Below are positions 34,398 through 52,692 of a DNA stretch of 64,000 nt, in pieces. The first letter of the stretch is position 1, and the number at the start of each line of letters is the position of its first letter. The stretch comes from Pseudomonas viciae. Lineage in GTDB: Bacteria; Pseudomonadota; Gammaproteobacteria; Pseudomonadales; Pseudomonadaceae. Both the position numbers and the translations under genes were made by a program. Under the pieces are notes generated by a model. That model saw only the letters and a list, made by a program, of their open reading frames with translations. It did not search any database and had not been told where the DNA came from. The stretch covers positions 6,595,001 to 6,659,000 of the forward strand of contig NZ_CP035088.1 of the NCBI RefSeq assembly GCF_004786035.1, given 5' to 3'.

Positions 34398-35363
34398 TTA
34401 TTCACAACGACAACTCGCCAGACCGGCCTGTAGAGCATCAACGTCTTGCGCCTCGGCGAAAATCAGTTCGATCCGTGAGTCCTGTCGCCACTCGCTGGTC
34501 CCCCAATCCAGGACCGCGCCCTCCAGTGCATTGGCTGAAACCCAGCCGTCCACGCTGTGGATAACCATCTTCGCGCGTTTCCAACCCCAGCCTTGCAGCC
34601 ATTGAGTGAGCGCCGCCGTGTCGAACAACTGGCTCGGATGCCAGCGCCAGCCGATGCTCCAGCCACCTTCCTGCTGCTGATGCAGGCAGATCGGCAATCT
34701 CGGGTCGGTCCAGATGGCCGGCATGTAACCCACATCCTTGGGTAGCCTGAAGTTATCCACAACCCCACTCCCCCGAGTTGCAAGACCCGGCAGTCGATCC
34801 AGCGGCAACTCAGCCTGTTGCGTCCAATACAACGCAAGCGCCGGCAGTTGCGCCGTGATACGTGCTCGATCGATCTCAGAGAGCTTCTCGGACTTATTCA
34901 ATACCAGCAGCCCGGCATCGGCCAAAGCACGCTGCTGCGCATCAGGCAGTGGCTTACCGTCCGCCATCGCCTGGGCATCCAGCACCAGCACGCCAGGTTG
35001 GACACTCAGCACGCCGAGCCATGGAGCCTCGTTCAATTGCCGCATCAGTTGCGCCGGATGGCCCAGCCCCGAAGGTTCGATAAACAAACGGTCTGGTCGC
35101 GCCTTGCGCAGCAATCGACCGAGACCAATCTGAAACGGCGCGCCGTTGACGCAACACAAACAGCCCCCGGCCACTTCGCCCAGTGCGATACCATCGGCGG
35201 CCTGGGTCAGCAACGCGGCATCCAGACCGATCTGGCCGAACTCGTTGATCAGCACCGCCCAGCGTTCATTGGCCGGACGCTGTGTCAGCAGATGCTTGAT
35301 CAAGCTGGTCTTGCCAGCCCCCAAGGGGCCGGCGATGACATGGGTGGGAATGTTCTGCAACAT
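34398..35363 (-). CDS. COG0523 (CobW/YjiA) GTPase, putative zinc metallochaperone
   Basis: A 321-residue G3E-family GTPase. Walker A is GPLGAGKTS (about 12-20), the metal-binding CxCC motif is GGCLCC (Cys68, 70, 71), EPSGLGHP forms the switch region and LNKSE is the NKxD-like base-recognition motif, here with NKSE. The C-terminal CobW_C domain (about 215-320) is shortened. COG0523 proteins deliver zinc or other metals to client enzymes. It lies at the edge of a Zur-linked cluster with a second COG0523 protein, FolE2 and a metal importer, supporting a role under zinc shortage. No Zur box was seen directly upstream, where the divergent gene is only 27 bp away. Confidence 0.87.
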   Translation of the reverse strand: MLQNIPTHVIAGPLGAGKTSLIKHLLTQRPANERWAVLINEFGQIGLDAALLTQAADGIALGEVAGGCLCCVNGAPFQIGLGRLLRKARPDRLFIEPSGLGHPAQLMRQLNEAPWLGVLSVQPGVLVLDAQAMADGKPLPDAQQRALADAGLLVLNKSEKLSEIDRARITAQLPALALYWTQQAELPLDRLPGLATRGSGVVDNFRLPKDVGYMPAIWTDPRLPICLHQQQEGGWSIGWRWHPSQLFDTAALTQWLQGWGWKRAKMVIHSVDGWVSANALEGAVLDWGTSEWRQDSRIELIFAEAQDVDALQAGLASCRCE

Positions 35364-35390
35364 AATCGACGGCTTTCGATGGAGGTGAAA

Positions 35391-35744
35391 ATGCGGATGC
35401 TCGGCTGGTTGTTACTGGCATTGACGTCAAACCAGGCACTGGCCCAGGCTTGTGTTGTGCACAGTCAGGCGGAGCGGCTCGATGTAAAAGTCTGCCAGCA
35501 GAACCGCAACATCCCGCAGAAGTTGTTCGCCGACGGCTTCTGCCAGCCAAGCCTCGCCGGGCAAAAAGTCGAGGTGCAGTACGTCGATCAGTGCCCTGGC
35601 GGCGCGTTTGGCATCTGCAGCAACGCCCAGGTCGCCAATATGCCTTACCGCCAGGATATTCACTATTACGGCGTGGCCACTGACGCCGCTTATCTCCAGC
35701 CGTTTTGTGAAGGCCAAAGCCAGGGCAACTGGCTCAAACCTTAA
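35391..35744 (+). CDS. Small exported Cys-rich protein of unknown function
   Basis: A 117-residue protein. The N-terminal signal peptide MRMLGWLLLALTSNQALAQA is followed by a mature part with six Cys residues, suggesting three disulfides in the periplasm (ACVVHS, KVCQQN, GFCQPS, DQCPGG, GICSNA, PFCEGQ). The start ATG 35391 has GGAGG 4 bp upstream; Met3 is an alternative. It diverges from the COG0523 gene by 27 bp and its end overlaps the convergent DUF1826 gene by 4 bp. I do not recognise the family. Confidence 0.75.
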   Translation: MRMLGWLLLALTSNQALAQACVVHSQAERLDVKVCQQNRNIPQKLFADGFCQPSLAGQKVEVQYVDQCPGGAFGICSNAQVANMPYRQDIHYYGVATDAAYLQPFCEGQSQGNWLKP

Positions 35745-36394
35745 GCCAGCCAATCCAGTGTGAGGATCAATCGGCGCTCCCCCGGGGCCGGTTCCGGCGA
35801 GCGGTGGATCAGGCCGAACCCTTCATTGCCGTGCCACTTCTCGCCTTTAAGCAACGCCACATCACCGCTGTAAAGCTGCTGGATCATCCGCGGATCGCCG
35901 GGCTCGGCTTCAGGCTGCGCCAAACATCGACGGTCCATGGCACTTTCCTTGAGCCACTGACTGCCGACACCGACATAAGTAGTGATTAGCCGCACCGGTA
36001 CATGGTCAACGTGAAAGCGCGGACACATGGCCTTGTCCAGTGCGCGCAGACGCAGGCCGACACGTTTGGCGCCCAGCAGACAGGCAAACGCACTGACCAA
36101 CCAGGCAACGTCGGCGATAAAGCCTTCGTAACCTTGCAGATCGCTGAACCCCGCGGCCAGGCCGTGCAGCGCCGGCTGAGTGTCGTCCTCCGGCAAGTCG
36201 AGCACCAGCGACTCAGCCAGCGGCTGCTCCATCGAAAGCACCATGGCCGCAAAGTCGCTGATATGCGCCGGAAGCTGACGTTGCCAGACAGCCAGGTTGG
36301 TGCCGTCCTCCAGAATTTGTGTCAGGATCCGTGGCGTTTCACCTTGGACCTGCCGCACCGGTGCAGCCCTATTCAGGCTGGGCGCCAGCATCAC
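35741..36394 (-). CDS. DUF1826 protein with dioxygenase-like HxD...H...R signature
   Basis: A 217-residue DUF1826 protein. The family is found next to COG0523 GTPases in Zur regulons, but its activity is unknown. Visible here is [19 protein letters not shown] (His128, Asp130) followed about 67 residues later by GLIHRSP (His197) and [11 protein letters not shown] (Arg207/208). This spacing resembles the Fe(II)/2-oxoglutarate dioxygenase facial triad and 2OG-binding Arg on a double-stranded beta helix; that reading is my inference. Translation is coupled to the upstream COG0523 gene through a 4-bp ATGA overlap, so both are under the Zur box at 37700. Confidence 0.82.
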
Positions 36395-37602
36395 GCTGCG
36401 ACCTCGTCGTCATGCCACGGGCCAAACGGGTCCGGCAGCAAGCGCCAACTTTCGACACCCAGGGCCATTTCCGCGTCGCTGAGCAGACAAGCGTCCAGTT
36501 CAGCGGTGAGCTGGGTGAAGTCGATGTCTTGTCCGATGAATACCAGCTCCTGGCGGCAATCGCCCGTGCTAGGCAGCCAGTTTTTCAGGATGGCAGCGCT
36601 ACTTTCCTCATCCTGCGGCCACTGGTTTTTTGGCACAAACCGCCACCAGCGCCCGGCAAATCCGTGCCGCATCAAACCGCCGGCCTGAGACCAACTGCCC
36701 GCTTCCTCAGGTTTGCTGGCCAGCCAGAAGAACCCTTTGGAACGCAGGAGTTTGCCGTTGGTCCACGGACGGTCGATCAAACTGAAAAAACGCTGAGGAT
36801 GAAACGGTCGGCGCGCCCGGTAGGCTGTCGAGGCGATGCCATATTCTTCGGTCTCGGGTACATGCTCGCCGCGCAGCTCCCGTAGCCAGCCAGGCGCTTG
36901 CGCGGCGCGTTCAAAGTCGAAAAGGCCGGTATCGAGAATGCGCCCCAAGGGGACCTGCCCCATGACCATGGGAATGATCTGCGCCTGGGCGTTGAGACGC
37001 TCCAGGATCGCAATCAATTCTTCCCGTTCGTCACGGCTGATCAGGTCGATTTTGCTGATTAAAATCACGTCGGCGAACTCGATCTGCTCGATCAGCAGGT
37101 CAGTAATCGAGCGCTCGTCTTCCTCGCCCAGGGTTTCGCCCCGGGACGCAAGGCTTTCGGCAGCCTGGAAATCCAGCAGGAAATTCACCCCATCAACCAC
37201 CGTCACCATGGTGTCGAGCCGGGCAACATCGGCCAGGCTGCGACCCTCTTCATCACGAAACGTGAAGGTTTCCGCCACCGGCAAGGGTTCAGAAATACCC
37301 GTGGACTCGATCAGCAGATAATCGAAGCGCCCCTCCCTGGCGAGCTGGCCGACTTCTTCCAGCAAGTCCTCACGCAGCGTGCAGCAGATGCAGCCGTTGC
37401 TCATTTCCACCAGTTTCTCTTCGGAGCGGCTCAGGGTGACATCTCGCTGGACTTCGCTGCCATCGATGTTGATCTCGCTCATATCGTTGACGATTACGGC
37501 GACGCGTAAATTGTCGCGATTGCGCAGGACATAGTTGAGCAGCGTGCTTTTACCGGCACCAAGAAATCCGGAAAGCACGGTAACGGGGAGGCGATTGGGC
37601 AT
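36391..37602 (-). CDS. COG0523 GTPase, ZigA-like zinc chaperone
   Basis: A 403-residue G3E GTPase of the longer ZigA/YciC type. It shows Walker [10 protein letters not shown] (about 12-20), CxCC in SNGCICC (Cys71, 73, 74), [22 protein letters not shown] as the base-recognition motif, and a CobW_C domain (about 265-390) with [13 protein letters not shown] and [16 protein letters not shown]. Such proteins are induced by zinc starvation and move zinc to client proteins; a histidine-utilisation link was reported for Acinetobacter ZigA. The start [10 protein letters not shown] at 37602 has GAGGA 8 bp upstream. It lies about 100 bp downstream of a strong Zur box, first in an operon with DUF1826. 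Confidence 0.92.
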
Positions 37603-37699
37603 CAGGTATATCCTCATCGGGGCGGCCATTGCTGACGCTGTTCACGCGCGTTTTGGCTCGTTTTCAGGCTTGGGCTTGGATCATGCCTGGGTAGTTTTA

Positions 37700-37714
37700 T
37701 GTTATAGTATAACA
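37700..37714. promoter_or_regulatory. Zur box in divergent promoter
   Basis: TGTTATAGTATAACA is a perfect inverted repeat that matches the gammaproteobacterial Zur consensus core TGTTATAnTATAACA. It lies between the ZigA-like/DUF1826 operon and the small exported protein gene, so it probably represses both when zinc is sufficient. Confidence 0.92.
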
Positions 37715-37761
37715 ACACAATTCAGCCAGCCCTGCCGCCCTCATTAGCCTGAGAACAATCG

Positions 37762-38160
37762 ATGCACACTTGTCTGAAACTCGTATTAGCGAGCCCGTTG
37801 TTGCTGTTGGCGCTGAGCGCTTCGGCCCAAAGCCCGCTCTTGGCCAACTGCACCCGCAGTGCGAGCTTGCTGGCGTGCGTTGACGGGCAAGGTAATGCCT
37901 ACAGCGTCGCAACAAGCGGAAACACCCTTTATCTGCGTGGTTTTGAAGCGGTCAGTCGTCGCCATTGGGCGCAAACGAACAGTCGTTACGGTCAAATCAC
38001 TTTCTTCACAGGCTTGGCGTCCGATGGTGAAAGTTGGGTTGGATACAACCGACGAGTTGGCTGGACGACCATCAACCGCTTCTCCAGCGCAGGCGGTGGT
38101 GGTAGCGGCGGTGCGTTCATATGCGGCCGCATGAACGGTTGTCAGAGTTCGTCGCACTGA
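37762..38160 (+). CDS. Small exported Gly-rich protein under a Zur box
   Basis: A 132-residue protein with signal peptide MHTCLKLVLASPLLLLALSASA (about 1-22). The mature part has four Cys (ANCTRS, LLACVDG, FICGRM, NGCQSS) and a beta-like middle (GNAYSVATSGNTLYLRGFEA, GQITFFTGLASDGESWVGYNRR). A Gly run (SAGGGGSGGAF) precedes the end. It is not His-rich. The gene starts 48 bp after a perfect Zur box and is followed by a second Zur box before folE2, so zinc-limitation control is likely. I do not recognise the family. A periplasmic role linked to the metal ABC importer, as AztD has in other bacteria, is possible but unproven. Confidence 0.78.
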   Translation: MHTCLKLVLASPLLLLALSASAQSPLLANCTRSASLLACVDGQGNAYSVATSGNTLYLRGFEAVSRRHWAQTNSRYGQITFFTGLASDGESWVGYNRRVGWTTINRFSSAGGGGSGGAFICGRMNGCQSSSH

Positions 38161-38176
38161 TGTTTCACGTGGAACG
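38161..38176. other. parS-like ParB-binding site
   Basis: TGTTTCACGTGGAACG matches the parS consensus TGTTYCACGTGRAACA at 15 of 16 positions. It begins one base after the stop codon of the small exported protein. See the two further copies at 38674 and 48055. Confidence 0.75.
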
Positions 38177-38228
38177 TGGGAGTAAAGAAATGAAACTCCG
38201 TTCATGAAAGAGGTTTATTCGAATTGAC

Positions 38229-38243
38229 TGTTATACTATAACA
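38229..38243. promoter_or_regulatory. Zur box upstream of folE2
   Basis: TGTTATACTATAACA, followed by TTAAATT, is a perfect Zur-type inverted repeat, 31 bp before the folE2 start. It should control folE2 and the downstream metal ABC transporter genes that overlap it. Confidence 0.92.
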
Positions 38244-38273
38244 TTAAATTCGAACCTATGATGGACCTTGCCC

Positions 38274-39170
38274 ATGAATGCGTTAACGCTGCCAGATGTT
38301 GCTGCGCAGGCTTCACGCCAAGCTTTACCCCTCGATTGGGTAGGCATGTGTGGGATCGCCACACCGGTTTTGATCGACGGCCAGCGTCTGAGCGCGACGG
38401 CCGACGCAGGTGTCAGCCTCGACGACGGTGATGCTCGTGGCATCCATATGTCACGTTTGTATTTGGCGCTGGAAATACTTGAAGAAACACCTCTTTCTCC
38501 AGCGCTATTGCATCGCGTATTGCGGCAATTTCTCGATAGCCATGAAGGCCTGTCCCATTTTGCTTCCCTAAGCATCCACACCGATTTGTTGCTTAAACGT
38601 CCGGCGCTAATCAGCCCGCTGGCCGGCTGGAAGCGTTATCCCGTGAGTATTGAAGCGCACCTGAAATACGCAGTGTTCCACGTGGAACTGAAAATTCAGA
38701 TCCCCTACTCGTCCACCTGCCCTTGCTCAGCGGCGCTCGCCCGACAGTTGATTCAGCAGCAATTCGTAGACGACTTCGCCAACCAAAGCCTCGAGCACGC
38801 TGAAATCCTGGCCTGGCTGGGCTCAGCAAACGGCATTGTCGCTACTCCCCACAGTCAACGCAGCATGGCCACGTTGAATCTACGGCTGGACACCCATGTC
38901 GACGAATTGCCGCTGCTGTCTCTCATCAACGAGGCCGAAGCGGCCCTAGGCACTGCTGTGCAAACCGCAGTCAAACGCGCCGATGAGCAGGCGTTCGCGC
39001 TCGCCAACGGCCAAAACCTGATGTTCTGCGAAGACGCCGCTCGGCGATTGAGCACCGCCTTGAGGCGCTCATCCAGCATCACCGCCCTGGATGTACGCGT
39101 CGTCCACGCCGAGAGCCTGCACGCCCATGACGCCGTGGCCCAAAGCCGCTGGCAGCGGGAGGCATCATGA
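38274..39170 (+). CDS. folE2: GTP cyclohydrolase I type IB (FolE2)
   Basis: A 298-residue FolE2 protein. It shows DWVGMCGIATPVLI, the signature ARGIHMSRLY, IPYSSTCPCSAALARQL with the catalytic Cys149, and ATPHSQRS. FolE2 makes 7,8-dihydroneopterin triphosphate from GTP, the first step of folate synthesis, and works without zinc (Mn or Fe can serve), replacing FolE under zinc shortage. Start ATG 38274 is preferred to the TTG 6 bp upstream. It sits behind a Zur box and overlaps the ABC ATPase gene by 4 bp (ATGA), forming one Zur-controlled operon. Codons for VFHVEL contain a parS-like site. Confidence 0.94.
   Translation: MNALTLPDVAAQASRQALPLDWVGMCGIATPVLIDGQRLSATADAGVSLDDGDARGIHMSRLYLALEILEETPLSPALLHRVLRQFLDSHEGLSHFASLSIHTDLLLKRPALISPLAGWKRYPVSIEAHLKYAVFHVELKIQIPYSSTCPCSAALARQLIQQQFVDDFANQSLEHAEILAWLGSANGIVATPHSQRSMATLNLRLDTHVDELPLLSLINEAEAALGTAVQTAVKRADEQAFALANGQNLMFCEDAARRLSTALRRSSSITALDVRVVHAESLHAHDAVAQSRWQREAS
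38674..38689. other. parS-like ParB-binding site inside folE2
   Basis: TGTTCCACGTGGAACT contains the perfect 14-bp parS palindrome GTTCCACGTGGAAC used by ParB in Pseudomonas. Confidence 0.88.
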
Positions 39171-39835
39171 TCCGTTGCCAAACCTTGCGCTGGGGTGCCC
39201 CTGGGCAACCTCTCACACCACCGCTGAATATGGAGCGGCCAGCGGGCAGCCTGACGGCCATCATCGGCGCCAACGGTTCGGGTAAGAGCAGCCTGCTGAA
39301 AGTACTCGCGGGGTTGCAAAAACCCCTGTCCGGGAAGGTCACGCTGGACGTCCCCCGCCGCGGCGGTGTCTCATTCCTGCCGCAGCAACAACATCTGGAT
39401 CGGCAGTTCCCCATCAGCTTGCAGGAGTTGGTGGCCGCCGGCTCCTGGGGGAATAGGCACACACCCGCCATGCGCAGGCAACTGCTCCAGACAGCCTTGG
39501 AAGACTGGGCTCTGGCGGGGCTGGAAAATCGTCCGTTGATGGCATTGTCTGGCGGCGAGTTACAACGCGCCCTGCTCGCTCGCCTGAGCCTGGCCGAAGC
39601 GCCGCTGCTGTTGCTCGACGAACCCCACGCGGCCCTCGACGAACAAGGCCAGGCGCTACTGTGGAAACACATCCATGGCTGGCACGCGGCGGGCAGAACC
39701 GTGGTGGTGGTTTGTCATGACCTGGCGGCGGTACGCGAACACATTCCTCACACATTGCTGGTCAGCCACGCCGGCTGCACGCTCAATCGCAGTGTCGACT
39801 TGATCGCCCAACAACCTCGCATGCGGGTGGCGTGA
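39167..39835 (+). CDS. Metal ABC transporter ATPase (ZnuC-like)
   Basis: A 222-residue ABC ATPase. It shows Walker A GANGSGKSS, Q-loop FLPQQQHLDRQFP, signature LSGGELQRALLARL, Walker B LLLLDEPHAALDE and the H-loop VVVVCHDLAAV. It powers import of a divalent metal, probably zinc, together with the permease and binding protein that follow. It overlaps folE2 by 4 bp and the permease gene by 1-4 bp, so it belongs to the Zur-controlled operon. It is distinct from a classical znuACB/zur locus: no zur gene is present. Confidence 0.9.
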   Translation: MIRCQTLRWGAPGQPLTPPLNMERPAGSLTAIIGANGSGKSSLLKVLAGLQKPLSGKVTLDVPRRGGVSFLPQQQHLDRQFPISLQELVAAGSWGNRHTPAMRRQLLQTALEDWALAGLENRPLMALSGGELQRALLARLSLAEAPLLLLDEPHAALDEQGQALLWKHIHGWHAAGRTVVVVCHDLAAVREHIPHTLLVSHAGCTLNRSVDLIAQQPRMRVA

Positions 39836-40701
39836 TGCTCGCGGCCACCCATCTCTGGCAACCATTCCAGGAGTTCGTCTTCATGCGCCGGGCCTTGCTT
39901 GGCGGTCTGGTATTGGCGTGCAGCACAGCCCCGCTGGGAGTATTTCTGATTCTTCGACGTATGAGTCTGATCGGCGATGCCGTGGCTCACGGTATTTTGC
40001 CAGGCGCCGCCCTGGGTTTCTGGTTCGCTGGATTGAGCCTGCCAGCCCTGACAATCGGTGGCCTCGGCGCGGGCCTGGGCATGGCCGGGCTGGCAGCCTG
40101 GATTACCCGACGCACCGGTCTGCGGGAAGACGCCAGCCTCGCGGCGATTTATCCGATTTCCCTGGCAGCCGGCGTGTTGATCCTCGGCATGGCCGGCAAA
40201 CGCCTGGATTTGCTTCACTTGCTGTTCGGCTCGGCACTGGCGGTAGACGGCCCGACACTCACCGGCATGCTCTGGGTTTCCGGGGCCAGCCTGGTGGCCA
40301 TGGCGCTGATTTATCGGCCCCTATTGCTCGACACCCTGGATCCGCTGTTCCTGCAAACCGTCAGTCGCTTGGGCCCTTTGGCCCATGGCGTGTTTCTGAC
40401 GTTGGTGGTGTTGAATCTGGTGATCGGCTTCCAGGCCATCGGTGCGCTGATGGTGGTCGGCCTGATGATGCTTCCGGCTGCCGCTTCGCGATTCTGGAGC
40501 CGGCGCCTGCCGATTCTAATGATGGTCGCGGCGCTGCTCGGTTGTCTTTCGGTGTGGCTGGGCCTGTTGCTGTCCTTCTATTTCTCGCTGCCCAGCGGAC
40601 CGGCCATCGTACTGGTAGCCGGCGCGTTATATCTGTTGTCCGTGGTGTTCGGTCCGGTGCACGGTTTGTTGCGCCGCCCGCCTTTGCTCACATCCCAATG
40701 A
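39835..40701 (+). CDS. Metal ABC transporter permease (ZnuB-like)
   Basis: A 288-residue ABC-3 family permease with about eight membrane helices. It shows FMRRALLGGLVLACSTAPLGVFLILRRMSLIGDAVAHGILPGAALGF near the N terminus and IGFQAIGALMVVGLMMLPAAAS, both typical of zinc/manganese importers. The start may be GTG 39832 or ATG 39835; both overlap the ATPase gene's stop codon. It acts in the inner membrane with the neighbouring ATPase and binding protein. Confidence 0.9.
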   Translation: MLAATHLWQPFQEFVFMRRALLGGLVLACSTAPLGVFLILRRMSLIGDAVAHGILPGAALGFWFAGLSLPALTIGGLGAGLGMAGLAAWITRRTGLREDASLAAIYPISLAAGVLILGMAGKRLDLLHLLFGSALAVDGPTLTGMLWVSGASLVAMALIYRPLLLDTLDPLFLQTVSRLGPLAHGVFLTLVVLNLVIGFQAIGALMVVGLMMLPAAASRFWSRRLPILMMVAALLGCLSVWLGLLLSFYFSLPSGPAIVLVAGALYLLSVVFGPVHGLLRRPPLLTSQ

Positions 40702-40712
40702 GGTGTTTCCCG

Positions 40713-41588
40713 ATGCGCGTCCTGCTCGTGCTGTTCAGTCTGATGCTGTCCATGTCCTTATCCGCCGCCGAAAAACTTCAGGTGGTAACCAGCTTCAGCA
40801 TCCTCGCCGACATGACCCGACAGGTCGGTGGCGAGCATATCCAAATCACCAACATGGTCGGGCCGGACGCCGATGCGCACACTTACGAACCCACACCAGA
40901 CGACGCCAAGGCGCTACTCCGCGCTAAGCTGATCATCAAGAATGGGCTGGGTTTCGAGCCATGGTTGGATCGCCTGGTCACCAGCACGGAAACCGGCGCC
41001 CCGGTGATCAGCGCCAGCCGCGGGGTGATCCCACGTTCGCTGGATGAAGATGGCGAGACCATCCCCGACCCTCACGCCTGGCACAACCTGGCAAACGCCG
41101 AACTGTATGTCAGCAACATCACCAAGGCACTGGAAGCGGCAGACCCGGCGAACAAGGCTGACTACGAACGCAACAGCCAGGCGTATCTGAAGAAGATCTA
41201 CGCCCTGCTCGCCGAAGCCAAGGCCAAGCTCGGGGCCTTGCCGCCAGGCAATCGCAAGATCGTGACGTCTCACGATGCGTTCGGTTACTTGGGCCAGGCC
41301 TACGGTATCGAGTTCATGGCGCCTCAGGGGTTGTCCACTGAACGTGAACCTTCGGCTGCAGAAGTCGCCGCGTTGATCACCCAGATTCGCCAGGCGAAAG
41401 TCAAAGCGGTGTTCATGGAAAACATCAAGGATGCGCGCCTGCTCAAGCAGATCGCTGACGAAAGCGGCGCGCACATTGGCGGTACGCTGTACTCCGATGC
41501 CCTAGCGACCAGCGGACCGGCCAGCACCTTCACGGGGCTGTTTGAATACAACCTCAATACGTTGTACGAGGCGTTGAGCCGGCCTTGA
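40713..41588 (+). CDS. Periplasmic metal-binding protein (ZnuA/AztC-like, cluster A-I)
   Basis: A 291-residue metal-binding lipocalin-free solute receptor of the ZnuA/PsaA class. It has a signal peptide (about 1-18), then VVTSFSILADMTRQVGG, MVGPDADAHTYEPTPDDAK (His56), PDPHAWHNLANAELYVSNI (His121), SHDAFGYLGQAYGIEF, a conserved Glu region STEREPSAAEV and an Asp in TLYSDALA. It lacks the His-rich loop of ZnuA, resembling AztC or MntC-type receptors; zinc is favoured because of the Zur box upstream. ATG 40713 with GAGGTG 7 bp upstream is chosen; ATG 40698 would add 5 residues. Confidence 0.9.
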   Translation: MRVLLVLFSLMLSMSLSAAEKLQVVTSFSILADMTRQVGGEHIQITNMVGPDADAHTYEPTPDDAKALLRAKLIIKNGLGFEPWLDRLVTSTETGAPVISASRGVIPRSLDEDGETIPDPHAWHNLANAELYVSNITKALEAADPANKADYERNSQAYLKKIYALLAEAKAKLGALPPGNRKIVTSHDAFGYLGQAYGIEFMAPQGLSTEREPSAAEVAALITQIRQAKVKAVFMENIKDARLLKQIADESGAHIGGTLYSDALATSGPASTFTGLFEYNLNTLYEALSRP

Positions 41589-44989: not shown

Positions 44990-45010
44990 AGGCTATCGAA
45001 TTTATAGCCT
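44990..45010. terminator. Inverted repeat, possible terminator of the SPFH/ATPase operon
   Basis: AGGCTAT CGAATTT ATAGCCT is a perfect 7-bp inverted repeat. On the minus strand it is followed by GCTATTTTTC, so it may terminate the operon ending at 45125. On the plus strand it is followed by TTTTCT. It could also lie in the cfa promoter region. The rest of 44930-45124 shows no gene. Confidence 0.4.
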
Positions 45011-45124: not shown

Positions 45125-47029
45125 CTATTCATCCCGAATCTTCAGCAACGGCTCTTGAAACCGCAGCAAGCGCCCGGCATTCCCCAACACCAGCAACGTG
45201 CTCAAATTATGCAGCAACGCCGCGATCATCGCCCCCGCCGCACCGAGCCAACCGAACGCCGCGAAGGCAACAATTGCCAGGGTCCAGCCCAAGCCGATGA
45301 TCACGTTGACTTGCAGCGTACGCCTGCATTGGCGACTGAGCCGAACGCAGGTACCGAGACGTCGCAGATCGCTGCCAATCAACACGATGTCCGCCGATGC
45401 GAGGGCAATATCTGCACCACCGGCGCCCATCGCGACACCCACTACGCCAGCCTTGAGCGCCAGGGAATCGTTGATCCCATCGCCCACCACCATTGGCCGG
45501 AACCCGTGGTCGATTTCGGCCATCACACGCTTGAGTTTATCTTCCGGCAAGGCCTGGGCCTGTACGTCGCCGAGGCCGATGTCCTGCGCCAAGGTGTTGG
45601 CCACGCTCTGGCGGTCACCGGTCAGCAGCAACTGACGCCCAAGGCCCAGTTCCCGTAGTTCAGCCATGGCAATCCGTGCTTCCGGCTTGACGCTGTCAGC
45701 CAGCAGCAGCCAGGCGAGAAATTTTCCATCCAGGGCCAACCCGGCAATCGGGCCATCATGGTTGGGGACTGCTGGGGTTTCGATGCCCAACTGAGTAAAC
45801 AACTCTGGCCGACCAAGCGCCGCTTCGCCCTGCCCGGTCATCGCCACCACACCCAGGCCCTGGCGCTCTCGGATATCGCTCAGCGGCAGGCAATTTTCCT
45901 GCTCCACCAGTCCCGCCAATGCACGGCTGACCGGATGGCTGCTGGCCGAACCGAGGCTGGCGGCCAATGCGAGTAAAGGCGCGTGATCGTCGTGGGCACT
46001 TTTGATAGATTGCAGGCGCAGGGCGCCGTACGTCAGGGTGCCGGTCTTGTCGACGACCAACGACGTCAGGTCCGCCAGTTCTTCCAGAAAGGCCGAACTG
46101 CGGATCAGGATCCCGTGGCGCGCCGCCACCGCGATCCCGGCAATGGCCGTCGCCGGCGCCGACAGCACCAACGCGCAAGGGCACGCCGCCACCAATACGG
46201 CGAGCATCGCCTGAGAGTCGTTAGTGACAAACCAGGTCACCGCCGCCAGCAGCAACACCAGCACCAGATAACTGCCGGCGTAGCGTTCCAGCAACCGGGT
46301 GATGGGCGGCTTGGAGCGTTCGGCGTTTTGCATCAGGGCAATGACCTTGCCCAGGGTTGACTCATTGCCGGTGCGGGTCACCTCCAGACGCAACAGCCCA
46401 TCAAGATTGATCGCGCCACCAAAGACTTCGGTGCCGACCACGGCCTCCAGTGGCACCGATTCGCCGGTGATGGGCGCGGTGTCGAGGCTGGCCTGACCGG
46501 ACAACACGCGACCATCGGCCGGCACCCGGTCACCGGCGCGCACCTCCACCACATCACCGGGCCGGAGCGTGCCGTTATCGACCTCGACGATCGTACCGTC
46601 AGCCAGCACCTTGCGGCCCAGGCTGCGGGTCAGTTGGCCAAGGGCATGAATCGCTTCCTGGGAACCAATGACGCTGCGCTCCTCCAGCACATGGCCGAAG
46701 ATCATGATGATTGGCAGCAGCGCTGCCGTCAGTAGATCACCCGTGGCCCAGGCGCCAAGCATCGCCAGGGCAATCAGTTGATCGGTGATCCCGTGCAGGC
46801 TCGGATAACGCAGGCTGTACCAGGCCGAACGCATCACCGGCACTGCCACCAGCAGCGAGGCGGATCCCAGCAGCAGTTGACTGACACCGCCCTGCTCCTG
46901 CGACCAACCGCGCCACACCAGGCCCAAGGCGAGCAGCCCAAGGGCGAGCATCGCCAAGGTCAGTTGGCGGGCGGCTGTGCGTTGTTCGGCGCCAGACAAC
47001 ATCGGCACCACGGCGGATTGAGCGGTCAT
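45125..47029 (-). CDS. P1B-type metal ATPase without N-terminal metal-binding domain
   Basis: A 634-residue heavy-metal P-type ATPase. It shows TGES (about 188-191) in the actuator domain, the membrane metal site CPC in AACPCALVLSAP (283-285), phosphorylation Asp327 in DKTGTLT, the HP pair (365-366) in SSHPVSRAL, and VVGDGINDSLALK. The last membrane segment reads LLHNLSTLLVLGNAGRLL, resembling Zn/Cd and Cu pumps but lacking the DxG of classical ZntA. No HMA domain or Cys/His-rich N terminus exists. It is the last gene of an operon with three SPFH genes, overlapping the previous one by 4 bp. Metal and direction are unknown; zinc is favoured by the Zur-like site and neighbours. Confidence 0.88.
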   Translation of the reverse strand: MTAQSAVVPMLSGAEQRTAARQLTLAMLALGLLALGLVWRGWSQEQGGVSQLLLGSASLLVAVPVMRSAWYSLRYPSLHGITDQLIALAMLGAWATGDLLTAALLPIIMIFGHVLEERSVIGSQEAIHALGQLTRSLGRKVLADGTIVEVDNGTLRPGDVVEVRAGDRVPADGRVLSGQASLDTAPITGESVPLEAVVGTEVFGGAINLDGLLRLEVTRTGNESTLGKVIALMQNAERSKPPITRLLERYAGSYLVLVLLLAAVTWFVTNDSQAMLAVLVAACPCALVLSAPATAIAGIAVAARHGILIRSSAFLEELADLTSLVVDKTGTLTYGALRLQSIKSAHDDHAPLLALAASLGSASSHPVSRALAGLVEQENCLPLSDIRERQGLGVVAMTGQGEAALGRPELFTQLGIETPAVPNHDGPIAGLALDGKFLAWLLLADSVKPEARIAMAELRELGLGRQLLLTGDRQSVANTLAQDIGLGDVQAQALPEDKLKRVMAEIDHGFRPMVVGDGINDSLALKAGVVGVAMGAGGADIALASADIVLIGSDLRRLGTCVRLSRQCRRTLQVNVIIGLGWTLAIVAFAAFGWLGAAGAMIAALLHNLSTLLVLGNAGRLLRFQEPLLKIRDE

Positions 47030-48078
47030 TGTTCGGCTCCCTGAATGATCAGGCGGGAATCGTCCTTCGGATCGACCGTTGTCACCGAGCCGGCCTGACG
47101 AAGGATAGCGGGCATGCGCTCACGATAAAGGCGCAACAGCATTTGCGGATCGGTGCCTTGGGCCTTTGCCAGGCCGAGCACTGTGGCGGTATCGGCCGAC
47201 GCCTTGGCGAGCCGCTCACTGGCCTGGGCATGGGCGACTTGCACCGCACGGTCGGCGTCCTGGCGGGCGCTCTGGGTCAATTTTTCAGCCTCGGTTCGGG
47301 CATTGGCAATGGCCTTGTCGGCCTGTTGGCTGGCGGTCAGTACCGCGTTGAATGCACTCACCGCGGACCCTGGGAGGCTCGACTGCACGTCGACCCGCAC
47401 CACTTCAATGCCCAGGCCCTGCCCGGTTGCAGCCAGATCGGCCAGGCGTCGGTTGATACCTTGCACCAGATCGCCGCGCAAGCGCTCACGGCGCTCGGCG
47501 GCCTGGTTGTCACTGCCCATCAGTTCAGGGCGCGCCACCAGAATGGTGTCCAAGTCCCGGGCGGCGGTAAGGGCCACGGCACTGCGAGTCGCCAGTCGAT
47601 CCAACGCCGGCAATACATGTTCGCCTTGTAAAACGAAGGCGTAGGGGTCGGTTACTTTGTAGAAGAGTCGCACATCCAGTTGCACTACACCGGCGTCACC
47701 GGTCAATAAATAACCAGAACCGGCTAACGCATCGCTGACCGGCGTGGCAAAACTGGCGACGCGATCCGCCTGCAAAGCCGCATCCGAACGCAGCAGGTAT
47801 TCCACTCGACGCTCAAGCACCCGATCCGCCGCTGGCAGCAGGATCACTTGTTCCACGGGACGAGGCCATGCCAATAGAAGGCCGGCATTCTGGATTCGAT
47901 CCATGGCACCAAAATGCAGGACTACCGCACGGCTCTGCGGATCGATCTGCCGCACGTTGGAAAACGCCCAGGCCAACGCCGCCAGAACCGTGACCGCGTA
48001 CAACGCCAGAAAAGCCAAACGTCCTGCCTGAATCCATGGACTGGATAAGCCGTTTGTTCCACGTGGAACCAAACTCAT
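47026..48078 (-). CDS. SPFH (HflC-like) membrane protein
   Basis: A 350-residue prohibitin/SPFH protein. One N-terminal membrane helix (about 18-40) precedes the SPFH domain: NVRQIDPQSRAVVLHFGAMDRIQNAGLLLAWPRPVEQVILLP, VVQLDVRLFYKVTDPYAF and a helical coiled-coil region (about 240-300) rich in Ala, Gln and Lys (ASQQADKAIANARTEAEKLTQSARQDADRAVQVAHAQ). HflC-like proteins form large membrane rings that control FtsH or organise microdomains. It overlaps its neighbours by 4 bp on both sides (ATGA junctions). Codons 3-8 (VPRGTN) contain a parS-like site. Confidence 0.85.
   Translation of the reverse strand: MSLVPRGTNGLSSPWIQAGRLAFLALYAVTVLAALAWAFSNVRQIDPQSRAVVLHFGAMDRIQNAGLLLAWPRPVEQVILLPAADRVLERRVEYLLRSDAALQADRVASFATPVSDALAGSGYLLTGDAGVVQLDVRLFYKVTDPYAFVLQGEHVLPALDRLATRSAVALTAARDLDTILVARPELMGSDNQAAERRERLRGDLVQGINRRLADLAATGQGLGIEVVRVDVQSSLPGSAVSAFNAVLTASQQADKAIANARTEAEKLTQSARQDADRAVQVAHAQASERLAKASADTATVLGLAKAQGTDPQMLLRLYRERMPAILRQAGSVTTVDPKDDSRLIIQGAEQ
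48055..48070. other. parS-like ParB-binding site inside an SPFH gene
   Basis: TGTTCCACGTGGAACC contains the perfect 14-bp parS palindrome GTTCCACGTGGAAC, with nearly symmetric flanks (GTTT and CAAAC). Confidence 0.88.
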
Positions 48079-49112
48079 GGTTGTGTTCCACCCTTGGGTT
48101 CCACGACAGGCGGGCCTTCTACCAACACCCGGAAGGGCGCGGCGTCGGTGCGCAGAATCAATTTCGTACCCGGCGAAACAATGGTTCCCAACGTATCCAG
48201 CGAGCGCAACAGGTTGTAGAGCTGAGGTGAGCCGGCATATGCCCTGCCGTAAATCTCGGCAGCCTCCACCCGGGACTGCGCTTCGATATCGGCGGCTTTC
48301 ACCGTGGCATCGGCCTGTAGAATTCGCGCATCACGCTCTGCAGCAGAACGAATTTGCGCCGCTTCGCGCCTGCCGATCGCCGTTCGCTCGGTGGCGATGG
48401 TTTCGCGCTCGGCACGCATGCGATCCACCGTCGCAGTCAGCGTCACCGACGGCAAGGTCAAGCGCTCAATACCGACTTGCAGCACGCGCACTCCGTAGGT
48501 GGTGAGCAACTGTTGATCTATCTGCTGACGCAATTGCGCTTCGAAATCGGCGATGCGCACCTGGCTGGCGTCAGTGTTGACCAGGTTTGCCAAGTCGAAA
48601 CTGGCAGCCGTGGTTTCCAGCGCCGAACCGACAAAGGTGCGGATCTGCCGGGCAGCTTCATCCGGTTGGTTCTGCACCGCACGCATGAAACGCTGCACAT
48701 TGTCCGGGTCGCCCTGGACCTGCCACGCCACGTACGCCTGAACGATAATCCGCAAGCCGTCGCGTGTGCCGACGTCCTGTAGACCGCTGGAAGTGGTGCG
48801 CAATCTCAAGTCCACCGGGATCGCCGCTTCGAACGGTGCCGGCCAACGCCAGCCCAGGCCCGGTTGCAACAGCACCCTTGCCGGGTTGCCGAAACGGGTG
48901 ATGACCGTGCCCTCTCCCGACCGCACTTGCACCAGGCTGGCGGCTGCCACGGCAAACGCCACCAGCAACGTCGCCCAACCCATCCGCCGCCAGGGGAACG
49001 GCCCGGCGTGCTGCGGATCGCCGTGATGGTGATGATGCCCATGGTGGTGGCCGGCATGAGCATGATCGTGACCGGCGTGGTCGTGGTGATCGTGTGAAGA
49101 GGACTGGCTCAA
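48075..49112 (-). CDS. SPFH (HflK/HflC-like) protein with cytosolic His-rich tail
   Basis: A 345-residue SPFH protein. Residues 7-36 are extremely His-rich (HDHHDHAGHDHAHAGHHHGH, then a further His run), lying before a single membrane helix (about 44-64) and so probably cytosolic. The SPFH domain follows: SGEGTVITRFGNPARVLLQPGLGWRWPAPFE, DGLRIIVQAYVAWQVQGDPDNVQRF and QQLLTTYGVRVLQVGIERLTLP, then a coiled coil (about 230-290). His-rich tails like this bind Zn, Ni or Co. It may be the missing metal-binding module of the operon's P-type ATPase. Both junctions to its operon neighbours are 4-bp overlaps. Confidence 0.86.
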   Translation of the reverse strand: MSQSSSHDHHDHAGHDHAHAGHHHGHHHHHGDPQHAGPFPWRRMGWATLLVAFAVAAASLVQVRSGEGTVITRFGNPARVLLQPGLGWRWPAPFEAAIPVDLRLRTTSSGLQDVGTRDGLRIIVQAYVAWQVQGDPDNVQRFMRAVQNQPDEAARQIRTFVGSALETTAASFDLANLVNTDASQVRIADFEAQLRQQIDQQLLTTYGVRVLQVGIERLTLPSVTLTATVDRMRAERETIATERTAIGRREAAQIRSAAERDARILQADATVKAADIEAQSRVEAAEIYGRAYAGSPQLYNLLRSLDTLGTIVSPGTKLILRTDAAPFRVLVEGPPVVEPKGGTQP

Positions 49113-51070
49113 TGGGCAGCTCCTGGCTGGACAGGGTTACGCGGCGACACGGGGTCTGCCGGCAGCGTGAAGGTACGCAGATCGATGGTCGGCGCGTTGC
49201 CGCTGCCGCCCAGGCGATGATCGAGAATCAGCAATCTGGCATTGCCGAGGCCCTGGCTCAGTTGGCTGAGGTATTGCTCCAACACAAATGCGTGGCCGGC
49301 CGTCGCGTAGGCTTTGCGCTCGGCGCTGAAGCGCAAGTCGGCGGCCTGGGCGGTGGCGTTGATTTCCCGGGCGGAGGCTTTGGCCTGGTCATGGGCGACG
49401 CTGGCTTGCAGTTGCGCCTGGTTGGTCTGCTCCGCCGCCGCGCCGCGCTCCCGGGCAATCATTGCCTGGGCGCCGATCTGCGCCGCTTGCACGCCGTGGT
49501 AAGCATTGGCCGCTCCGGCCGGCGGGTGAATCGCTTCGACCACTGTCGCCAGAATTTCCACACCACTGTCGAGCGACTGCAAGTCGGCCTGCACGGCACG
49601 GCCGATTTCATCGGCCAGCCTGACACGGTCCGCGCCCAGCAAACCGTCCAGCGTGCGCGAGGCAAACTCATGCACCAGGACGCGGCTGGCGGTGCTGCGA
49701 ATCAGCGTCGGCACATCGGCGCTGTTGTAGGTCGCCGCCAGCGCCGCTGCATCAGTCAAGCCGATGCGATAGACGAAACGCACGTCCATGTTGACGATCT
49801 GGAAGCTCTGCTGGTCGGCACGACGGCTGGCGATGACTTGGGATTTATCGTTCACATGGCTGGCGTCCCACAGCCGATTGGCAATCGCCGGGGCCGGCCC
49901 CTCAGCCGGCTCAGCCTCGGTGGGCGCCCGGTTAGCAGCGCCGCTGGTGGCCAGTTCATGCACGACACCGTTCTCGACGCTCAGCACCCTGCCCCAAGGC
50001 CAGGGTAAGCCGGCGTGCAGACCCGGGGCGAAAACCTCCACCGGCTTACCGAAGCGCTCATAAATACCGCGCTCCTGCAGCGGCACTTCATGCACGCCTG
50101 TCAGCAGCCAACCCACCAGCGATACCAGCGCCAACACCGGTAAGAAGGCCCGACGCATGTAACTGAAAGCCCAGATCTGCCGCAGGTCGATACCAAAACG
50201 GTTGTGCAGCTCATGCTGCAAAGCCAATAACGGTTGCGGCGGCCAGCGCAACAGGTCCGCGACGACGCTGCGCCCCAACAGGGTCGGCTCCAGGGAATCC
50301 CGGCGTGGGCTGAACAACGACAGCAGCGCGCGCAGTAACAACTCCACCGCCACCAACCCTGGCAATAATCCGATCAGCACCGCCAGGCGCACCGGCCAGA
50401 GCGACGTTTCTGCGGCGAACAACAAGCACAAGGCACCGAGCACCAGCACGATGATCGCCACCCGCGTCAACTGCGCCAGCGACGATGCTTCCGGCCACTC
50501 CACGCCAGGCTGCTGGGCCAATTGACGTTCGAACACCAGCAACCCAAACGCCAGCAACAAAGAAAGCACCGCGCCCACACTGGCGGACACGCCAAGGGCA
50601 GCGCCAGGTAATTGCAGGTTCCAGGCTTGCTCCAGACTCAGCAATACCATCACTGACCAACCGGCCAGCCACAAGGTGGATGCGCCGATCTGCTTCAGCA
50701 GGCCGACCCAGCGCGCGCCGATTCGCTCGAGCAGCCGCTCATACCAACCCAAGTTATCAACAGGCTCGTCTGCGGGAGTAGAGATATCCACAGCCGGCCG
50801 CAGTGCCCTGCCCCGCCATTGCGTGATCCACCAGGCCGACTGCAAACCCGCCACCAGTACCAGTAAACCCGCACTCTGGCTGACCAGCAACGCCGGCCAA
50901 AGTGATTGCGGCGAAAACAGCCCGATGAAAAGCGCCAGCCCCCATCCCAGGCCTGCCAGACCAGCCAGCGCGTAGGCGATTCGCTTCAAGCGACGCCCCT
51001 GAAACAACGCCCGCTGAAAGCGCGGCCACTCGGCAACCGCTGCCCCCTCGACATCAAGATCGACTTGCAT
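49109..51070 (-). CDS. Large SPFH (HflK-like) protein with multi-helix membrane domain
   Basis: A 653-residue protein. The first part (about 30-260) holds about six hydrophobic helices (LAGLAGLGWGLALFIGLF, ALLVSQSAGLLVLVAGL, LWLAGWSVMVLLSL, VGAVLSLLLAFGLLVF, VAIIVLVLGALCLLF, VRLAVLIGLLPGLVAVELL). A further helix at about 313-330 leads into an HflK-like SPFH domain (VHEVPLQERGIYERFGKPVEVFAPGLHAGLPWPWGRV) and a long Ala/Gln coiled coil (about 515-600). HflK itself has one membrane helix, so the membrane domain is an extension. It is the first gene of the SPFH/ATPase operon. The region 51071-51291 upstream, shared with divergent lpd, carries a Zur-like inverted repeat. Confidence 0.84.
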   Translation of the reverse strand: MQVDLDVEGAAVAEWPRFQRALFQGRRLKRIAYALAGLAGLGWGLALFIGLFSPQSLWPALLVSQSAGLLVLVAGLQSAWWITQWRGRALRPAVDISTPADEPVDNLGWYERLLERIGARWVGLLKQIGASTLWLAGWSVMVLLSLEQAWNLQLPGAALGVSASVGAVLSLLLAFGLLVFERQLAQQPGVEWPEASSLAQLTRVAIIVLVLGALCLLFAAETSLWPVRLAVLIGLLPGLVAVELLLRALLSLFSPRRDSLEPTLLGRSVVADLLRWPPQPLLALQHELHNRFGIDLRQIWAFSYMRRAFLPVLALVSLVGWLLTGVHEVPLQERGIYERFGKPVEVFAPGLHAGLPWPWGRVLSVENGVVHELATSGAANRAPTEAEPAEGPAPAIANRLWDASHVNDKSQVIASRRADQQSFQIVNMDVRFVYRIGLTDAAALAATYNSADVPTLIRSTASRVLVHEFASRTLDGLLGADRVRLADEIGRAVQADLQSLDSGVEILATVVEAIHPPAGAANAYHGVQAAQIGAQAMIARERGAAAEQTNQAQLQASVAHDQAKASAREINATAQAADLRFSAERKAYATAGHAFVLEQYLSQLSQGLGNARLLILDHRLGGSGNAPTIDLRTFTLPADPVSPRNPVQPGAAH

Positions 51071-51130
51071 ACCACCCCAGCGCTTGTGGCGATCAGAATC
51101 CGGGCCCGTGGACAGACGCCACCGCCGCTC

Positions 51131-51155
51131 CGTTATATGTCGTTACCTTATAACG
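51131..51155. promoter_or_regulatory. Zur-like inverted repeat upstream of the SPFH/ATPase operon
   Basis: CGTTATA (51131) and TATAACG (51149) form a 7-bp inverted repeat. Inside it GTTACCTTATAAC (51142-51154) matches 10 of 12 fixed positions of the Zur core GTTATAnTATAAC. It lies 61-85 bp before the operon start and 137 bp before divergent lpd. It is weaker than the two boxes near folE2. Confidence 0.5.
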
Positions 51156-51291
51156 ATTACTGTGAAATTTCTGTTTTGAATTCTTCATGACGCCCCCTGC
51201 GCCTACCCCTTGACTAAAGCCTTGACCTAAATCTTCGGGAACGCTCATATTACGCTCATAATTTTTTATCTGGCCAAGCGGGAGAACAGCG

Positions 51292-52692
51292 ATGAGCAAC
51301 TATGACGTAATCATTCTGGGCGGCGGGCCCGGCGGCTATAACGCGGCGATTCGCGCCGGGCAGCTGGGGTTGAAGGCCGCCTGTGTCGAAGGCCGTGCGA
51401 CCCTGGGTGGCACCTGCCTGAACGTCGGCTGCATGCCCTCCAAAGCGTTGCTCCATGCCTCGGAATTATACGAAGCAGCCATGGGGGCAGAGTTCGCCAA
51501 CTTGGGCATCGACGTCAAACCCAGCCTCAACCTTGCGCAAATGATGAAGCAGAAAGACGAAAGCGTGGCGGGCCTGACCAAGGGCATCGAGTTTCTGTTC
51601 CGCAAGAACAAAGTCGACTGGATCAAGGGCTGGGGCCACATCGACGGGCCGGGCAAAGTGACCGTCACCGGCGAAGACGGCGGCAAGACCGAACTGAGTG
51701 CCAAGGACATCGTCATCGCCACCGGCTCCGAACCCACACCGCTGCCAGGTGTCGAGATTGATAACCAGCGCATCCTGGACTCCACCGGCGCATTGTCCCT
51801 GAGTGAAGTGCCCCGGCATCTGGTGGTGATTGGCGCAGGCGTCATCGGCCTGGAGCTGGGTTCGGTCTGGCGGCGCCTGGGCGCCGAGGTGACGGTGGTG
51901 GAATACCTTGATCGCATCTGCCCGGGCGGGGATGGCGAGGCCGGCAAAACCCTGCAGCGAGCCCTGGGAAAACAGGGCATCCAATTCAAGCTGAGTTCCA
52001 AAGTCACGGGCGCCGTTTCGTCGGCCAGCGGTGTGCAATTGCAGATTGAACCCGCGGCGGGCGGCGAAGCGCTGACCCTGGACGCCGATTACGTGCTGGT
52101 CGCCATTGGCCGGCGGCCCTATACCCGAGGGCTGGGTCTGGAGAACGTCGGGCTGAGCACCGATAAACGCGGCCTGCTGGCCAACCAAGGCCATCGCACC
52201 GAAGCGCCCGGCATTTGGGTGATCGGCGACGTGACGTCCGGGCCGATGCTGGCCCACAAAGCCGAAGACGAAGCCATGGCCTGCATCGAACAGATCGCCG
52301 GCAAGGCCGCCGAGGTCAACTACGCGCTGATCCCCAGCGTCATCTACACCCGTCCGGAACTGGCCAGCGTCGGCAAGACCGAAGAACAACTCAAGGCTGA
52401 AGGCCGCGCCTACAAAGTTGGGAAGTTTCCATTCACGGCCAACAGCCGGGCGAAGATCAACCACGAGACCGAGGGTTTCGCCAAAGTCCTGGCCGATGAG
52501 CGCACCGACGAAATCCTCGGGGTGCATCTTGTGGGCCAGAGCGTCAGTGAGATGATCGGCGAATACTGCGTGGCCATGGAATTCAGCGCCTCGGCCGAGG
52601 ACATAGCCCTGACCTGCCATCCACACCCCACCCGTTCGGAGGCGTTGCGCCAGGCGGCGATGAACGTGGAGGGGATGGCGACACAGATGTAG
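51292..52692 (+). CDS. lpd: Dihydrolipoyl dehydrogenase (Lpd3-like)
   Basis: A 466-residue flavoprotein disulfide reductase. It shows the FAD motif VIILGGGPGGYNAAI, redox-active Cys42/Cys47 in GGTCLNVGCMPSK, NAD-binding VVIGAGVIGLELGSVWRRLGAEVTVVEY, a second FAD contact GIWVIGDVTSGPMLAHKAEDE, and the active-site His/Glu in LTCHPHPTRSE. It reoxidises dihydrolipoamide with NAD+. Standing alone without pyruvate or branched-chain dehydrogenase genes, it corresponds to the extra copy called lpd3 in P. aeruginosa. The start has GGGAG upstream. Confidence 0.93.
   Translation: MSNYDVIILGGGPGGYNAAIRAGQLGLKAACVEGRATLGGTCLNVGCMPSKALLHASELYEAAMGAEFANLGIDVKPSLNLAQMMKQKDESVAGLTKGIEFLFRKNKVDWIKGWGHIDGPGKVTVTGEDGGKTELSAKDIVIATGSEPTPLPGVEIDNQRILDSTGALSLSEVPRHLVVIGAGVIGLELGSVWRRLGAEVTVVEYLDRICPGGDGEAGKTLQRALGKQGIQFKLSSKVTGAVSSASGVQLQIEPAAGGEALTLDADYVLVAIGRRPYTRGLGLENVGLSTDKRGLLANQGHRTEAPGIWVIGDVTSGPMLAHKAEDEAMACIEQIAGKAAEVNYALIPSVIYTRPELASVGKTEEQLKAEGRAYKVGKFPFTANSRAKINHETEGFAKVLADERTDEILGVHLVGQSVSEMIGEYCVAMEFSASAEDIALTCHPHPTRSEALRQAAMNVEGMATQM

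Follow-up and report, generated by a model that had tools for sequence, protein, structure and literature searches.

The window analyzed here, a 64,000-nucleotide stretch of the Pseudomonas viciae genome (assembly GCF_004786035.1, contig NZ_CP035088.1, positions 6,595,001 to 6,659,000 of the forward strand), contains an operon-like arrangement of four genes encoding three HflK/HflC-like SPFH proteins, designated S1, S2, and S3, and a P1B-type ATPase (Table 1). On balance, we lean toward the view that this is a Zur-repressed zinc-starvation unit in which an SPFH cage holds the ATPase while the His-rich tails of S2 buffer zinc. The four genes are consecutive on the minus strand, and each pair overlaps by 4 bp. 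An earlier note on this DNA had recognized three SPFH proteins plus a P-type ATPase, and this is borne out by Pfam: Band_7 scores 75.4, 107.9, and 61.9 bits for S1, S2, and S3 (cut-off, 23.6), and the ATPase matches E1-E2_ATPase and Hydrolase. The note's three ATGA overlaps were correct for S2/S3 and S3/ATPase and were rejected for S1/S2, which reads TTGA; the start codon of S2 is therefore TTG. With start codons picked by rule, as those nearest to the preceding stop, S2 begins with TTG in 60 of 65 loci, and all three 4-bp overlaps occur together in 26 of the 65, the window being included in both counts.

The unit is orthologous to the hmtA locus of P. aeruginosa, as judged from the identity of the ATPase and from the gene order at locus L062, which fits PA2439 to PA2435. 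Over 624 residues, the ATPase shares 80% identity with P0131, a P. aeruginosa protein that is probably PA2435, judging from the L062 gene order and the published locus. At L062, where the N-terminus of the ATPase matches that of P0148 from the P. aeruginosa group, the order is S1, S2, S3, an extra open reading frame (ORF), and the ATPase.

Linkage of the SPFH proteins to the ATPase was apparent across genomes. Of 298 Pseudomonadaceae genomes, 65 carry the S1 membrane domain and 65 the ATPase (E<=1e-100); the two sets are identical, and at the thresholds used no genome has only one of the two. Among 64 relatives whose loci were fetched (L042 was excluded as a second copy of the region of L106), all 64 had the order S1-S2-S3-ATPase, with the ATPase of L064 running off its contig, and this conserved order, together with an S2 tail in every one of them, exceeds chance. 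The order, which the earlier note had suggested checking for conservation across Pseudomonas, is thus fixed wherever it was fetched, whereas the unit is not general in the family, and the tight linkage that the note proposed seems to hold, as far as shared genomes and constant order indicate. Of 349 loci from a contig search, the best 80 comprised 79 with all four genes in order, including one in Marinomonas flavescens (L158), and one 3.3-kb contig; the species behind these loci overlap those of the family survey. The ATPase was found at E<=1e-120 in 11 of 398 genomes of the phylum, three of them outside the family, and all three carry the whole unit, with S1 identities of 46 to 47%. In surveys with few genomes per genus, the S1 membrane domain was found only in its own genome among 274 of the class, S1 in three of 145 of the order (all Pseudomonadaceae), and the ATPase only in its own genome among 369 of the class. 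In the ATPase tree (FastTree, with the root placed by choice on L199/L200), the ATPases of L158 and of L198, a locus from another class that also has the whole unit, group with the Pseudomonas ATPases or close to them. The unit may move as a block.

This distribution bears on the possibility of plain coregulation, in which the SPFH proteins would organize a general membrane domain that is helpful under zinc starvation, with the ATPase acting alone. Zur regulons do contain many unlinked functions, but a 4-bp overlap precedes the ATPase gene in 51 of the 65 loci (again counting the window), the order stays the same in distant relatives, and none of the 298 genomes has only S1 or only the ATPase, which makes this explanation very improbable.

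Several lines of evidence point to zinc. A Zur-box-like operator lies upstream from S1 and is the best site in the window for a matrix built from sites upstream from S1 in relatives (62 sites, 55 distinct, with the window, L068, and L070 left out); the next two sites precede zinc-related genes, and the fourth-ranked site scores only -1.3. The matrix is not independent of the Zur consensus, since its training sites were picked by likeness to that consensus, which was not found in the available portion of PMC3781045. The string GTTATANNRTAACG occurs once in the genome, and at least 9 of the 10 GTTATNNNATAAC bases were present in 53 of 69 upstream regions versus 0.29% of shuffles, which preserve base composition only. 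In L199 and L200, which belong to a different family of the class, the operator has 10 and 9 of the 10 bases. As for the genes near the other two sites, zigA scores 680.9 bits (cut-off, 600) and folE2 320.7 bits (cut-off, 215); the ABC transporter beyond folE2 has AztA, AztB, and AztC as its best models, with scores under their cut-offs. Published work, cited throughout from the available portions of the articles, agrees with this picture. In a znuA mutant, PA2435 and PA2437 to PA2439 were induced 5.6- to 14.4-fold, and a Zur site was predicted, though a weak one (PMC4542158); Zur binding to the PA2439 promoter was seen as a shift (PMC8531726); the proteins increase under zinc depletion, not all significantly (PMC11761036); and N-acetylcysteine induces PA2437 to PA2439 as part of a zinc-starvation response (PMC9431628). 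Because of such reports, the zinc link of these genes was already known. Operator, neighboring genes, and published expression support control of the unit by Zur in zinc starvation, so that the metal-handling unit suggested earlier can probably be specified as one for zinc.

The ATPase carries the DKTGT and HP motifs and the CPx in helix 6 of P1B-type pumps and scores 518 bits with TIGR01525 (cut-off, 346). DKTGT and HPVSRAL are present in 69 of 69 ATPases, C283 and C285 of the CPC motif are invariant in the 68 that could be aligned, and HN[LFI]ST occurs in 68 of 69, the exception being the truncated L064. In ZntA-type exporters, the Lys and Asp residues of the last two helices have a role, and CoaT-type (P1B-4) pumps are marked by an SPC motif (helix 6) and an HEGxT motif (last helix). 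The HNLST of the window aligns with HEGST of 7qbz and DTGAT of ZntA (4umv). The closest solved relative is 7qbz, named cadmium translocating P-type ATPase, which we take to be a CoaT-type exporter; the last-helix His is common to the two proteins and SPC is replaced by CPC, so that the ATPase has the His and ST of the CoaT type and not its Ser and Glu. Relative to ZntA, Asp is replaced by His, and the Lys of the helix before last by Thr; with these replacements and a score of 285 bits with the ZntA model NF033775 (cut-off, 1240), a ZntA-type (P1B-2) pump was rejected. Given its motif differences from 7qbz and 4umv, the ATPase is not a typical representative of either the ZntA or the CoaT type.

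HmtA of P. aeruginosa has been reported to take up zinc and copper (PMC10393844, PMC8456098), and the import direction assumed here is that reported in published HmtA work as given in reviews. Alternatively, the ATPase could be an exporter like its solved relatives, derepressed together with broad zinc uptake to expel cobalt, copper, or nickel and loaded by the His tails. The naming of 7qbz, the alignment of its last-helix His, the loss of the ZntA Asp and of the Lys in the preceding helix, and the suitability of cytosolic His tails for loading would all fit export. Helix 6, however, reads CPC rather than SPC, and overexpression of the P. aeruginosa orthologue reportedly raises cell zinc and copper and causes hypersensitivity (PMC10393844); we therefore consider export unlikely.

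Two further points of the earlier note, a His-rich tail on one SPFH protein and the lack of an HMA or His-rich domain in the ATPase, agree with our results. In the window, the N-terminus of S2 has 16 His in 45 residues and that of the ATPase none, and no HMA domain was found in the ATPase at E<=0.01 in Pfam. The S2 tail is presumed to be cytosolic on the basis of HflC topology and of the WRR that precedes the helix. Ahead of its membrane helix, S2 has 6 to 20 His in all 69 sequences, whereas the ATPase N-terminus has none in 37, 1 to 4 in 14, and at least 7 in 18; the S2 tail is the constant element across relatives, and the ATPase tail is often missing. In the ATPase tree, aeruginosa-type lineages and several others retain the His-rich tail; it is reduced to 1 to 4 His in one Pseudomonas clade, nearly or wholly lost in the sister of that clade, to which the window belongs, and absent from L199/L200. 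The note's proposal that the S2 tail supplies the metal-loading site of the pump in trans did not survive as a strict substitution, given that the two tails coexist in some relatives and do not compensate in His number; moreover, loading presumes export, and the P. aeruginosa orthologue is reported to be an importer (PMC10393844).

By sequence, the nearest solved relatives of S1, S2, and S3 are HflK and HflC, which are also among the best fold matches for S1 (structure models were of single chains only), and it is from these relatives that a cage of S1 to S3 may be proposed. S1 to S3 could instead be a zinc-starvation stand-in for HflK/HflC that tunes the zinc protease FtsH, the ATPase being merely coregulated, as might be expected from their HflK/C-like sequence and predicted fold and from a published table that labels the orthologues FtsH modulators (PMC9431628). 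Yet all three score below the equivalog cut-offs (TIGR01933, 56.0 for S1 and 97.6 for S3 versus 159.4; TIGR01932, 90.9 for S2 versus 134.4), and they are only 22 to 27% identical to the genome's own HflK/HflC, of which HflC (at 617 kb) passes the HflC model cut-off. Since that pair is located elsewhere, S1 to S3 were rejected as the classical HflKC of this genome. The presence of S1 and the ATPase in the same genomes would be unneeded for a general FtsH modulator, and the His tail and six-helix domain would be left unexplained, which renders this alternative distinctly unlikely. In the SPFH part of S1, His 405, 515, and 525 are invariant in 69 of 69 sequences, the latter two lying within EAIHPPAGAANAYH at the beginning of the long C-terminal helix.

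The extra membrane domain that had been noted in S1 was confirmed as six hydrophobic helices ahead of the SPFH anchor helix, and structure modeling tentatively gives it a zinc-transporter-like (CDF/YiiP) fold. A functioning CDF transporter was rejected, since ligands and a sequence match are lacking: PF01545 was not listed for any of 37 S1 members at E<=10 in Pfam, and Asp and His are absent from residues 58 to 90 and 194 to 217 of the window S1 (helices 2 and 5), with none conserved there in the 37 sequences. Among 25 CDF domains, D143 never varies and D35 and H139 hardly do; all three are presumably metal ligands. In KdpFABC, a channel-like subunit turns a P-type ATPase into an importer. We speculate that, likewise, an exporter-derived pump might be made an importer by the transporter-like S1 within the SPFH cage, with the His tails catching zinc. 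This idea is quite improbable; if true, the unit would be a zinc counterpart of KdpFABC, and the odd report of import by HmtA would be explained.

In the zinc-buffering cage that we favor, S1, S2, S3, and the ATPase would be produced together when zinc is short, and S1 to S3 would form a hetero-oligomeric, HflK/HflC-like SPFH cage in the inner membrane, enclosing the ATPase. Many S2 tails would concentrate His on the cytosolic side of the pump, binding zinc that enters or leaves it and preventing the escape of that zinc; the pump could thereby dispense with a tail of its own. The six-helix domain of S1 might dock to the pump or shape the surrounding membrane.

Several observations weigh against this model. 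A His-rich ATPase tail (at least 7 His) occurs together with the S2 tail in 18 of 69 cases, and the mean S2 His number is 14.6 (n=50) where the ATPase tail is missing and 13.5 (n=19) otherwise (p 0.25, uncorrected for relatedness); the lack of a difference in S2 His number between the two groups is an argument against simple compensation. In 16 of 69 upstream regions, including those of L158 and L198 (8 of 10) and L070 (7 of 10), only 7 or 8 of the 10 operator bases are present, so that the operator is weak or absent there. The hhalign probability of S1 against CDF is 0.2%, no better than that of a column-reversed control. In P. aeruginosa, hmtA mRNA was low and not repressed by zinc (PMC8531726), and strain PA14 lacking the three SPFH genes grows normally in LB (PMC13086221), although the operon should be repressed in LB. 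Finally, mycobacterial CtpC-PacL1 foci arise without flotillin (PMC9374683).

Table 1. Features of the S1-S2-S3-ATPase unit and its surroundings (window positions)
Feature	Position	Strand	Remarks
S1	49109..51070	-	653 aa HflK-like SPFH protein, first gene; PA2439 / PaFlo5 orthologue; Band_7 at residues 328-544
S1 six-helix membrane domain	50318..51010	-	Residues 21-251; modelled with CDF/YiiP-like fold, no sequence support
S2	48075..49112	-	345 aa HflC-like SPFH protein, TTG start; PA2438 / PaFlo6 orthologue
S2 His-rich tail	48981..49112	-	Residues 1-44, before single membrane helix; presumed cytosolic
S3	47026..48078	-	350 aa HflK-like SPFH protein; PA2437 / PaFlo7 orthologue
ATPase	45125..47029	-	634 aa, P1B-type; HmtA (PA2435) orthologue, without N-terminal metal-binding domain or tail
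CPC motif	46175..46183	-	ATPase residues 283-285, helix 6; 68/69 by regular expression
HNLST motif	45197..45211	-	ATPase residues 607-611, last membrane helix
Zur-box-like operator CGTTATAAGGTAACG	51137..51159	-	Upstream of S1; best matrix site in window, 16.9
Second-best site, same matrix	37696..37718		Score 11.8; upstream of zigA (36391-37629, -)
Third-best site, same matrix	38225..38247		Score 11.0; upstream of folE2 (38268-39170, +) and AztABC-like ABC transporter (39167-41588, +)
Possible terminator hairpin	44990..45010	-	3' of ATPase gene, consensus scan only

The operon has cfaB (model match) at its 3' side; at its 5' side, at 51292 and divergently oriented, is a gene identified as lpd by inspection. 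No gene for a protease, Hfq, or HflX thus adjoins the operon, in keeping with the context described before. The range first assigned to the unit, ending at 51291, contains the four genes and also covers the intergenic region with the operator. Terminator-like sites in the region number 10, versus 6.1 (sd 2.8) in shuffles. The second zinc-starvation locus (34398-41588), whose end is 3.5 kb away from that of the ATPase gene, also holds another CobW/COG0523-type GTPase (34398-35363) and, between its two Zur-like sites, a small ORF (37762-38160) without an NCBIfam match at E<=1e-5. At L199 (8717-9730), the S2 gene is seemingly broken by an in-frame stop; S2 of the related L200 is one open frame.

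Reviews list HmtA as an atypical case, an importer among P-type ATPases, and the neighboring SPFH proteins have been labeled FtsH modulators or investigated separately from it. Published in 2026, a study of SPFH proteins in P. aeruginosa describes and deletes PaFlo5 to PaFlo7 and in its discussion notes less biofilm and weaker Galleria killing; it never mentions hmtA and mentions zinc once (PMC13086221). In a literature search mostly outside subscription journals and covering articles in part, we found no paper tying these SPFH proteins mechanistically to the pump and no report of the S2 tail or S1 fold. The gene set is partly known, and the reason that scaffolds accompany the pump is a testable question, for which the mutant already described (PMC13086221) suits a first test. 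Should S1 to S3 prove to be part of the pump, SPFH proteins of Gram-negative bacteria would have a defined client and a defined condition (zinc starvation), and there would be a route to testing how a P1B pump could import.

Among known systems, the hmtA locus PA2439-PA2435 (PaFlo5-PaFlo6-PaFlo7 and HmtA) has the same four proteins in the same order and published Zur control. In the nine aeruginosa-type loci (L054 to L062), S3 and the ATPase are separated by about 600 additional bases, which in the five translated loci (L054, L055, L056, L061, and L062) contain, at the place of PA2436, an ORF of roughly 160 aa whose N-terminus is signal-like; the window has neither this insertion nor the His-rich ATPase tail of those loci. 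Compared with CDF proteins (YiiP, ZnT), S1 has no Pfam or profile match, and an SPFH domain replaces the CDF cytosolic domain. The HflK-HflC cage around FtsH likewise combines K-like and C-like SPFH proteins; the window unit differs in having three proteins rather than two, a six-helix domain, a His tail, scores under the cut-offs, and a P-type ATPase where HflK-HflC has a protease. PacL1-CtpC of mycobacteria also pairs a membrane scaffold with a His-containing metal-binding end and a P1B ATPase encoded beside it; PacL1 is small and non-SPFH, its metal-binding end is C-terminal, and CtpC is an exporter required against excess zinc (PMC9374683). None of the four window proteins matches the small DUF1490 scaffold in Pfam. 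PacL1-CtpC may nevertheless be regarded as a precedent for a metal-binding scaffold beside a P1B pump, though one that serves export and does without flotillin.

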